Below, piece after piece: positions 21,361-61,379 of a stretch of 64,000 nucleotides of DNA. The translations under genes were made by a program, and so were the position numbers. This DNA comes from Thermoplasmatales archaeon ex4572_165 (GTDB lineage Archaea; Thermoplasmatota; E2; DHVEG-1). Numbering within the stretch: the first letter of the stretch is position 1; every line of letters starts with the position of its first letter. The stretch covers positions 1 to 64,000 of the forward strand of contig NJDG01000001.1 in the NCBI GenBank assembly GCA_002254885.1, read 5' to 3'. The notes below the pieces were generated by a model. That model ran no database searches. It saw only the letters and a program-made list of their open reading frames with translations, and was not told the origin of the DNA.

Positions 21361-22677
21361 ATGGATAAATCGTTGGCAGTTGAATTGATACAAAATTTCA
21401 TACAAAAACCCCTTCCAAACCTAATTAATCGAGACCTAGAAACTCCTCAACTATTAAAACAAAAAGCAAATATTATTATTGGTCCACGAAGAGCGGGAAA
21501 AACATATTTTCTTTTCAATGTAATCCAAAGAATGAACAAAGAAAAAAATCAGATGCTGTATATCAATCTTGAGGATGACCGATTACTCCCATTAACACCA
21601 AATGATATGGATCTACTATTAAAAACATATTATGAAATCTATCCCGAAACGAAAGATACATCCCTCTATTTATTTCTGGATGAAGTACAAAATCTGCAAG
21701 AATGGGAACGATTTGTTAGAAGAATTCTTGATACTGAAAACATTTTCGTTTTTCTCACAGGTTCATCCTCGAATATATTTACAACTGAAATTGCAACTCA
21801 CATGCGAGGGAGAAGCCTTTCGTATACTATTCTTCCCTTTACCTTCGAAGAATTTTTACGATCAAAAGATAAACATCCCGGAAAGCACCCTTCAACTACA
21901 CAACGATCTTGGACACTTAAACTATTATCAGAATATTTAACTTTTGGAGGATTTCCTGAAATAACTCTTGTGGATTCAGAACGAACCAAAATCAAAATAC
22001 TCAAAGAATACGTTGAAGTTATGCTTCTTAGAGATATTATTGAACGTCATGCCATTCATAACATCAAAGTTCTTCGTATGCTTTTCTCAGCAATTATTGA
22101 ATCATTTTCCAAAACCTTTTCCGTTCATAAATTTTATAATTCTCTTAATTCACAAGGAATAAAGGTAAGTAAAAATACGCTTTATGATTACCTTTACTAC
22201 CTCGAAGATTCCTATGTTGTTTTACCGGTGAAACGATTTAGTTATTCCCACCGAAAAATCAAGCAGAGCCTTCCCAAAACATACCTTATGGATAATGGAT
22301 ACATTCTTCAACATAGATTTAGACCAACAGAAGATACTGGTCGTTTAATGGAAAATGTGGTTGCCATCGAATTATTCCATAGGAAAAAACATGATCCAAG
22401 ATATCAGTTTTTTTATTGGAAAAACCCTCAAGGTATTGAAGTCGATTTTATCGTCGTAAAAGAAAACAGATCATACGATCTTATACAAGTGGCTTATGAT
22501 ATCGACAAAAAGGAAACTCATGACCGCGAAATAAGTGCATTGTTAAAAGCATCTGAATCAATTAACACAAAAAATCTCCATATTATTAGCTGGGATACTG
22601 AAAAACAAATCAGCATTAATGAAAAGAAAATCCATGTTATTCCTCTCTGGAAATGGCTTCTAAATGAAAACAAATAA
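21361..22677 (+). CDS. AAA ATPase with C-terminal DUF4143 domain
   Basis: A 438-residue protein of the widespread archaeal/bacterial AAA_14-DUF4143 family. Walker A GPRRAGKT (about 41-48), Walker B LYLFLDEVQNL (about 102-112) and sensor-like FLTGSSSNIF are intact. The C-terminal half carries the DUF4143 pattern, ending with YWKNPQGIEVDFIVV, which looks like a degraded PD-(D/E)xK nuclease core (E-V-D-F). Function is unproven; family members are common in mobile and accessory regions. Transcription appears leaderless or nearly so, with an AT-rich TATA-like stretch about 30 nt upstream. It sits alone inside the repeat-flanked patch after tRNA-Met. Confidence 0.88.
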   Translation: MDKSLAVELIQNFIQKPLPNLINRDLETPQLLKQKANIIIGPRRAGKTYFLFNVIQRMNKEKNQMLYINLEDDRLLPLTPNDMDLLLKTYYEIYPETKDTSLYLFLDEVQNLQEWERFVRRILDTENIFVFLTGSSSNIFTTEIATHMRGRSLSYTILPFTFEEFLRSKDKHPGKHPSTTQRSWTLKLLSEYLTFGGFPEITLVDSERTKIKILKEYVEVMLLRDIIERHAIHNIKVLRMLFSAIIESFSKTFSVHKFYNSLNSQGIKVSKNTLYDYLYYLEDSYVVLPVKRFSYSHRKIKQSLPKTYLMDNGYILQHRFRPTEDTGRLMENVVAIELFHRKKHDPRYQFFYWKNPQGIEVDFIVVKENRSYDLIQVAYDIDKKETHDREISALLKASESINTKNLHIISWDTEKQISINEKKIHVIPLWKWLLNENK

Positions 22678-22772
22678 GGAGCCATCTAAAAAATTATTAT
22701 AAATTCAAGGGAGTGAAAATGAATGAAGAAGTCAGTAAAAGTAATAATGGGCCCGACCGGCTCCTTAAAATC

Positions 22773-22812
22773 CAACAGGAGGGATTGATTGAGATAGTAT
22801 TGAGTTTTTGGC
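22773..22812 (+). repeat. imperfect direct repeat, copy 2, with local inverted repeat
   Basis: This is the second copy of the CAACAGGAG-N9-GAGATAGT-TTTTTGGC arrangement. In addition TTGAGATAGT (22789-22798) is followed by its exact inverse ACTATCTCAA (22813-22822), and ACTATCTC occurs again at 22836-22843. The 82-codon frame that crosses this region (22713-22961) is best seen as chance. Confidence 0.4.
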
Positions 22813-22897
22813 ACTATCTCAAAATTGTCGTGTCAACTATCTCACTAAACTTTTTTTCTTTTCTTTATACTAAATTCACGATTATTGTTAGTTTAGT

Positions 22898-28562: not shown

Positions 28563-29098
28563 GCAAGATTTGATAAAACAGGAATATTCAAACCTGATGA
28601 ATCTAAACAAAAAAAATATAGTAAACTTTGAAAAATAAGAGAAAGAGATTGATGCTTAAAAAATCAAAATATGTTTTTTGTTTACATTTGCAACGATCAA
28701 TTAAAAGACCCAATTATTCAACCTAAGTTAGATCCGTTCATTTTCATCACCTTTAATATTCACATTTTTTTATTTTAAAATAATTGGAAAATGATATAAT
28801 ATACAAAAAAATTCAGAGTATCCTTCCAAAATTGGGGTTAATAGATAAAGGGAGGATGGTCTGGAGACACGAAAAAGGAGGCAAAATAAAATGAAAAATA
28901 TAAGGGGGTCACCCTTTTTCTTACTCTCTCACCTCTCCAGACCTCAAAATATCATATTATTAAATGTTGCTTAAATAGTTTTTGCAATTTATAAAAATTA
29001 TGCAACAAAATCCTATTAATAATATACTTAATTATTATGAAAATAACAATAAATCTAATAAAAATCCATCATAAGTTCATTAATTATTATATCAATTT
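28563..29098. other. convergent intergenic region holding hairpin element A
   Basis: This 536-nt gap lies between the convergent ends of the kinase and radical-SAM genes. It is AT-rich except for the GC-richer element at 28851-28944. A TATA-like GATATAATATAC lies about 60 nt before that element on the plus strand. I see no convincing gene beyond the 27-codon frame inside the element. Confidence 0.6.
28858..28943 (+). ncRNA. candidate structured element A (partner at 61295-61379)
   Basis: GGTCTGGAGA (28858-28867) is perfectly complementary to TCTCCAGACC (28934-28943). Inside it GAAAAAGG (28871-28878) pairs with CCTTTTTC (28913-28920). The enclosed core has AAGGAGGCA (a perfect ribosome-binding site), an ATG at 28891 and ATAAGGGGG. 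The element near 61.3 kb has the same core words in the same order but a different, also perfect, 10-bp stem. This suggests a conserved RNA or DNA fold. The frame from ATG 28891 reads MKNIRGSPFFLLS and runs 27 codons. The plus orientation is inferred from the AGGAGG-ATG. Confidence 0.45.
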
Positions 29099-30145
29099 TT
29101 ATGGGATGATCTCAGTTGTATTGTTAAATAAAGGATATCTTAATTTCTCTACATATTTCTCATAAATTGGTTTATATTTCATCAGCTCATGGATTAAAAA
29201 ACGAGTAACATGACACATCTCATCAAAACCTTCTTGACCCCAAAGTCTTTCTTTATGAGCAAATAAACAACGTCCACCACATAAATAATAATCATCACAT
29301 TGAATACAAGGTTGACCAATATCAATCGGTTTAAACCCCGTTTCAATATCGCCTAATATGTTCCATGTATAATCAGGGGCAATTGGACACGCAAGAATTT
29401 TGCCATCTGTTGTAACTGTTACAGACTTAGTACCAGATTGACAAAACAGACCAGATCCACCATGAAGCATACGACTAACGATACCTAAAAATGGAACAAT
29501 ACCTAAAATATTGCCGTCTTTCATTTCTTCAACCCAATATTTCACCAAGCTTTGAATACCTGGAAGATAACTAGATTTAACCCATTCTTTAAACTCAGGT
29601 AGATCCCACATAGCACTCCAGATCATATCAAGCTGCCAATGAACAAAAGGGAATATCTTTAGCAGATGCATTACATCCTCATAAATATCTGATTTAACAG
29701 ATACAGACATACGTGCAATAATTTCACCATTGAAATCACGATCATTTAAATAATCAACAGCAGATATTACTCTATCATAACATCCCTTTTCCCGATAATA
29801 ATCAGTTATTTGTTTTCCGCCATCAATTGAAAGAAGAATACTATCAAAACGATGGATTGTATCATCTAATGTCTCAATAAAATAACCATTAGTATTAATA
29901 ACAAAATGCTTAGCATTTAAATTCTCAACATATTCCTTAACATTCATAGGTTTCAGTAGAGGCTCCCCACCATAAAATGCAACAACCGCATTATTATCCC
30001 TTTTTAATAATTCCTGTAAATCAGAAATAGAATATGTAATATCTGCAGGCATTCCATGTAGACTTCCCCCACAATACTTACAACAAAGATTACATAATGG
30101 AGTAGTCATAATAATATATAACATATCACAAGGAAAACATCTCAC
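29099..30145 (-). CDS. radical SAM/SPASM protein, probable peptide-modifying enzyme
   Basis: A 348-residue radical SAM enzyme. The SAM-cluster motif is C18-NLC-C22-KY-C25 (CxxxCxxC), followed by YGGEPL and LLSIDGG. The C-terminal part has a SPASM-like cysteine set: FCQSG, ILACPIAPD, PCIQCDDYYLCGGRC and EMC, able to hold auxiliary Fe-S clusters. Size and layout recall the archaeal AF1577-type family of putative peptide-modifying radical SAM proteins. No obvious precursor peptide lies next to it. The start may be GTG 30145 or ATG 30124; the latter leaves a more usual short leader before the first Cys. It is 61 nt downstream of a stand-alone receiver on the same strand. Confidence 0.85.
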   Translation of the reverse strand: MRCFPCDMLYIIMTTPLCNLCCKYCGGSLHGMPADITYSISDLQELLKRDNNAVVAFYGGEPLLKPMNVKEYVENLNAKHFVINTNGYFIETLDDTIHRFDSILLSIDGGKQITDYYREKGCYDRVISAVDYLNDRDFNGEIIARMSVSVKSDIYEDVMHLLKIFPFVHWQLDMIWSAMWDLPEFKEWVKSSYLPGIQSLVKYWVEEMKDGNILGIVPFLGIVSRMLHGGSGLFCQSGTKSVTVTTDGKILACPIAPDYTWNILGDIETGFKPIDIGQPCIQCDDYYLCGGRCLFAHKERLWGQEGFDEMCHVTRFLIHELMKYKPIYEKYVEKLRYPLFNNTTEIIP

Positions 30146-61294: not shown

Positions 61295-61379
61295 GAAAAA
61301 GGGGGCATTGGTTCTGGTCAAAAAAAAAAATACCAAGGAGGCATAATGATAAGGGGGCGACCAGAACCACTTTTTTTCA
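61295..61379 (+). ncRNA. candidate structured element B (partner at 28858-28943)
   Basis: TGGTTCTGGTC (61309-61319) is perfectly complementary to GACCAGAACCA (61359-61369). The outer GAAAAAG (61295-61301) can pair with the CTTTTTTTC after it. Between the arms are AAGGAGGCA, an ATG at 61346 and ATAAGGGGG, the same words as in element A with a shorter spacer; the stem sequence is different. The frame from ATG reads MIRGRPEPLFFIS and stops. The element is in the divergent gap 61223-61524 between the secreted-protein operon and the Lrp gene, about 80 nt from the former and 145 nt from the latter. No other gene is visible in that gap. Confidence 0.45.

Follow-up and report, generated by a model that had tools for sequence, protein, structure and literature searches.

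A candidate minus-strand small RNA gene in a Thermoplasmatales archaeon, and an apparently undescribed family-wide class of predicted RNAs with C-rich loop and tail

The 64,000-nucleotide stretch of DNA analysed here (the window) carries two hairpin elements in the same general layout (Table 1). Element A (28858-28943) is a perfect 10 bp inverted repeat of GGTCTGGAGA with a loop of 66 nt, while element B (61309-61369) is a perfect 11 bp inverted repeat of TGGTTCTGGTC with a loop of 39 nt. A lies between convergent genes, and a gene of 875 aa is located 73 nt downstream of B on the same strand as B. Two 9-mers, AAGGAGGCA and ATAAGGGGG, are each present in the window as exactly two copies (one per element, same strand), and both loops contain an ATG. 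These positions, repeats, shared words and convergent neighbours of A agree with a preliminary description of the locus. The two inverted repeats are the most GC-rich of the window and are among only about ten noncoding inverted repeats with at least six G/C per arm in about 1.15 Mb of genome, two others of which are tRNA genes. Since the ordered AAGGAGGCA/ATAAGGGGG pair, at that spacing, is found nowhere else in the genome and repeats with such GC-rich arms are so rare, the likeness between A and B is not attributable to chance. The stem sequences had been described as different: the arms do differ and each pairs perfectly with its partner, but they are not unrelated, as GGT(T)CTGG is common to both. 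Elsewhere in the window, positions 29099-30145 encode a radical SAM/SPASM protein (TIGR04084, AF0577 family, well above the cut-off), which adjoins tandem PAS histidine kinases. Nested intergenic inverted repeats (TAAGGAGCC, TTGAGATAGT) with GGGAGTGAAAATG in the loop follow a gene end at 22675-22844; their membership of the class described below is doubtful.

Table 1. Coordinates and predicted parts of elements A and B in the window, and of related H1 candidates
Feature	Position	Strand	Remarks
Predicted small RNA A	28845..28944	-	~100-105 nt; sister species G001 has homologues C and D; covariance model R1
BRE/TATA-like promoter block of A, GCAAAAACTATTTAAGCAA	28967..28985	-	Conserved with C and D; spacer to hairpin not conserved
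A closing stem, 5' arm GGTCTGGAGA	28934..28943	-	Opens conserved GGTCTGGAGAGGTGAGAGA, which runs on to ~28925
A closing stem, 3' arm TCTCCAGACC	28858..28867	-	Inverted repeat and A/C/D alignment
A loop motif GCCTCCTT	28875..28882	-	Complementary to Shine-Dalgarno AAGGAGGC; conserved in B, C and D
A second loop motif CCCCCTTAT	28900..28908	-	Common to B only
A C-rich tail ATCCTCCCTTTAT	28845..28857	-	Putative 3' end or terminator; class-wide tail (Y)CCCTCCC after stem
Predicted small RNA or leader B	61295..61378	-	A-like layout; stem directly before C-rich tail; fold z = -4.66
B stem, 5' arm TGGTTCTGGTC	61359..61369	-	Inverted repeat
B stem, 3' arm GACCAGAACCA	61309..61319	-	Inverted repeat
B loop CCCCCTTATCATTATGCCTCCTT, complement of AAGGAGGCATAATGATAAGGGGG	61335..61357	-	Sequence
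B tail ATGCCCCCTTTTTC	61295..61308	-	Part pairs with GAAAAAAAG (61370-61378) as outer stem
Possible B TATA box TATAATAAAA	61408..61417	-	Sequence only; outside the strong-hexamer list
H1 candidates beside sepF-like gene	L249 1692-2060 and syntenic loci	convergent	Six genomes

In the sister species (G001), one strong relative of A (element C) was obtained by BLAST and a second (element D) by pattern search. The covariance model R1, built from A, C and D, scores these training sequences at 104.9, 92.3 and 117.7 bits, respectively, and recovers an untrained, diverged fourth copy (E, 40.2 bits) from the same species; the genes flanking the four copies differ, placing them at different loci. Beyond E, the R1 search of other genomes gave nothing convincing, and matches below 31 bits in other genera were rejected as they resemble AT-rich chance matches. 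As R1 finds only E besides A, C and D, the A subfamily is known from two of the three species of one genus. The exact core pattern, searched in 60 relatives, was confined to the own genome; across all GTDB contigs it gave 79 matches, which come from unrelated phyla, stand at chance level and include no recognisable member, and 27 matches in viral contigs were all devoid of the stem. The comparison with Rfam, which had been proposed at the outset, yielded only tRNAs at the gathering score and, near A, nothing except a sub-threshold miRNA match beside it.

The alignment of A, C and D contains, on the minus strand, a conserved CAAAAATTATTTAAACAAG block (TTATTTAAACAA-type) 33-36 nt upstream of the stem, an intervening spacer of low conservation and, at the end, a conserved C-rich stretch (CTCCCTTTA); no matching conserved block is seen in this alignment on the other side of the hairpins. 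An archaeal BRE/TATA promoter is expected to look like such an upstream block, and RqcH in this genome, like RNA polymerase subunit D in the sister species, marks the organism as archaeal. The preliminary description had proposed a structured RNA or DNA hairpin: a structured RNA is supported for A, but the strand first described is the wrong one, because the conserved promoter lies on the minus strand. With a minus-strand promoter, the functional loop is GCCUCCUU, and AAGGAGGCA-ATG is its complement instead of a ribosome-binding site held in a hairpin. A count of G-U against A-C pairs (17 to 15) does not decide the strand. We infer that A is transcribed from the minus strand by its own archaeal TATA promoter (~28967-28985), starting a few nt upstream of 28944 and ending at the C-rich/U tail (28845-28857). 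The resulting RNA of about 100 nt would fold into one long closing stem and a large loop, exposing C-rich anti-Shine-Dalgarno-like motifs in the loop (GCCUCCUU) and in a single-stranded tail (CCUCCCUUU).

A wider class of similar layout is found between genes across the archaeal family by covariance searches, and comprises a TATA box, 25-35 nt, a G-rich stem arm, a U/C-rich loop, the complementary arm, 2-6 nt and a C-rich tail. A point against reading these elements as RNA genes is that the U-tracts of many loops could themselves stop transcription. In the own genome (G000), the descriptor "GC stem then CCYCCYTT" fits 5 of 43 noncoding sites, namely A, B and three new ones, compared with 0/58 and 0/56 for GGAGG control descriptors. 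Two structure models with seed loops trimmed to 24 nt, R2 (five sequences) and the broader R3 (eight seeds), recover untrained elements both within this genus and from further genera of the family; the E-values of the covariance models are rough, the gene calls are simple longest-ORF calls and the genomes compared are mostly incomplete assemblies. Further copies in related genomes, on which the preliminary description had made its proposal depend, are thus available. R3 misses A, whose loop is long; layout and promoter link A to the wider class, and homology links it to C, D and E. B was itself a seed of R2 and R3, so that its match to these models is a seed match; the search returned no homologue of B and no strong TATA hexamer upstream of it, and its tail is resembled by that of one element of the sister species (G001:C70). 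B is a probable small RNA gene. Several further R2/R3 matches (L310, L313, L314, G027:C22, G027:C27, G028, G056 and G068), located in ORFs or devoid of a TATA box, are not confidently counted as members. Single elements of fitting layout occur outside the family in G074 and G038. The former (L324, G074:C38, 3489-3549) has a TATA box, a GGGACGAGG stem, TTTGCCTCC within its loop and GCCTCC within its tail, and is much like A.

Two subfamilies, H1 and G1, each occur in several genera. H1 (with a GGATCTGG stem) is present in G001 (two tandem copies), G002, G011, G016, G021, G024, G030, G035, G067 and probably G015. In G001, G011, G015, G016, G021 and G035, its neighbour in convergent orientation is a gene of ~124 aa that is homologous across these genomes and whose G001 copy matches SepF. 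The tandem H1 copies have a single difference in 75 nt of the RNA part, while their upstream regions are more diverged. G1 is present in G000, G002, G007, G018 and G027 (syntenic in G000 and G002). Three loci with other intergenic or RNA features were also recorded: consecutive C-rich motifs (TGCCCCCC, CCTCCCC and GCCTCC) with an adjoining hairpin and TATA-like box in an intergenic region of G001 (L162, G001:C67, ~21640-21690), a tRNA-Trp gene whose long insertion, which carries a 10-bp inverted repeat, is probably an archaeal tRNA intron (L190, 6641-6760), and a perfect 16-bp inverted repeat, TCAGCGGTCTGAAGTT, between genes (L216, 2205-2302).

Covariation of the stem had been claimed from A and B, although two copies cannot demonstrate it; with the further members it is observed, and the pairs are conserved. 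In the eight seeds, all 10 pairs of the closing stem have changes on both sides, and 97.5% of its cells are paired, against 65% in shuffles and at most 64% in slid controls; these figures are inflated, as the seeds were chosen for having stems. Better support for the stem, at the sequence level, is provided by related H1 and G1 copies, in which pairing is kept despite sequence change (for example, GGAATC/GATTCC versus GGATC/GATCC).

The strand can be assessed independently by the TATA box, which is part of neither R2 nor R3. As no clean TATA matrix could be learned from 28 regions upstream of tRNA genes, plain strong hexamers (TTTAAA, TTTATA, TATATA and TATAAA) starting 30-48 nt upstream of the stem were counted for 34 intergenic matches, A, B, C and D included. 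A strong hexamer is present on the predicted strand in 24/34 and on the opposite strand in 7/34, its positions peak sharply at -36 to -31, and the background is ~0.14 per 24-nt intergenic stretch. The Fisher p value of 7e-5 for this excess counts orthologues as independent and is hence too small. By subfamily, the hexamer occurs in all 11 H1 and all six G1 members and in two of the three A/C/D members (A's own ATTTAAG being outside the list); since most of the single weak matches have none, the weakest matches are doubtful. The homologues, the minus-strand promoter block, the covarying stem and tail of the class and the synteny of two subfamilies, taken together with the variable orientation of neighbouring genes, argue that A is very probably a stand-alone small RNA gene, and the earlier view that it is not a leader holds.

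As to function, the 16S rRNA 3' end of the sister species reads ATCACCTCCT, so that AAGGAGGC holds a perfect Shine-Dalgarno word, of which the minus-strand loop GCCUCCUU is the complement. The loops of A, B and C complement the whole SD-spacer-AUG arrangement, with GCCUCC as the loop motif. The exposed C-rich loop and tail may pair with Shine-Dalgarno/start regions of mRNAs, covering their ribosome-binding sites and blocking translation, a mechanism that we regard as an attractive proposal falling slightly short of an even case. With a cut-off of -14 kcal/mol, target prediction gave 306 start regions for the A loop (ten shuffled loops: mean 217, maximum 271), 240 for the B loop, which is not above its controls (219), and none for the A tail; only 285/1035 start regions are SD-like. 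The prediction weakly supports anti-SD action for A, and not for B.

A serious rival to anti-SD action, although on balance an unlikely one, accepts the RNAs as real and assigns to their C-rich loop and tail the role of protein-binding sites, the RNA being a decoy or scaffold. In CsrB/RsmZ decoy RNAs of bacteria, a repeated short motif (GGA, bound by the protein CsrA) is exposed in loops; the repeated exposed motif is a likeness to the present class, which differs in being C-rich and archaeal. Several subfamilies carry the same C-rich motif twice, in loop and tail (UUCCAUCUCUCC in H1, GCCUCC or CCUCC in A/C), and CCTTTCTTCCCTCCC is invariant in seven aligned G1 sequences (six from G1 genomes and G001:C120) even though the G1 loop has no CCUCC; with a weak anti-SD target test, these features suit protein binding. 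On the other hand, A, B and C each have a loop that mirrors an entire SD-spacer-AUG arrangement, and the loci are in general without a linked protein gene.

A cis-acting role, as 3' UTR hairpins or terminators or, for B, as the leader of the 875-aa gene, is improbable: CCYCC and a T-run do follow some gene ends directly and B precedes a gene of the same orientation, but the orientation of neighbours is inconsistent (the upstream gene is on the other strand in 15/31 cases and the downstream gene in 18/31), and the elements carry a TATA box of their own, the distance of which is constant. Hardly any weight is given to a plus-strand leader or small ORF with the Shine-Dalgarno AAGGAGGCA and ATG held in the hairpin, for even though AAGGAGG perfectly matches the 16S anti-SD and each of A, B and C has a short ORF opening with the ATG, this ATG is missing from D, the encoded peptides are not related to one another and none is conserved, that strand has no conserved promoter and the TATA excess is on the other one. 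Equally implausible is a dispersed MITE-like mobile element whose ends would be the inverted repeat: A, C, D and E do occupy different loci, but the conserved unit in the A/C/D alignment is not bounded by terminal inverted repeats and exceeds both arms (by 30-40 nt and ~11 nt), the stem sequence varies between members with pairing kept, the H1 and G1 subfamilies consist of syntenic orthologues, and no insertion element was found.

The preferred reading as a whole (A as a small RNA gene, B of the same layout, a family-wide class and anti-SD blocking of translation) is held with moderate confidence. Its closest parallel is the alpha-r14 family (CuckooR/NfeR1) of Alphaproteobacteria, in which a constant C-rich anti-SD motif (CCUCCUCCC) lies in unpaired regions of RNAs whose stems differ strongly, and which acts on translation start regions to block translation (PMC10746234). 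The predicted RNAs resemble them in having an unpaired C-rich anti-SD motif and variable stem sequences. Unlike the bacterial alpha-r14 RNAs, with three hairpins each bearing CCUCCUCCC, they are archaeal, have one closing stem, an archaeal promoter and no Rfam match, and carry GCCUCC/CCUCCC in loop and tail; the three-hairpin arrangement of alpha-r14 is not found. Among archaea, sRNA162 of Methanosarcina mazei is an intergenic sRNA that acts in trans by masking a ribosome-binding site and has homologues only in Methanosarcina (PMC3510493); its layout (191 nt, three stem-loops, pairing via a single-stranded linker) differs from that of A and B.

These elements apparently constitute a class of archaeal small RNA genes undescribed so far. 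A strand-blind reading of a Shine-Dalgarno-like word can hide an anti-SD RNA. For the archaeal sRNAs studied best, homologues are limited to close relatives. More speculatively, the family may hold several sRNA genes of one plan (own promoter, covarying stem, C-rich loop and tail) that form a global post-transcriptional system built on a partner protein of its own or on shared anti-SD action, of Hfq-/Csr-like scope and without a known archaeal parallel. Conservation of a structural class across many genera of a single archaeal family, with syntenic members beside a sepF-like gene, would open post-transcriptional control in archaea to comparative study.
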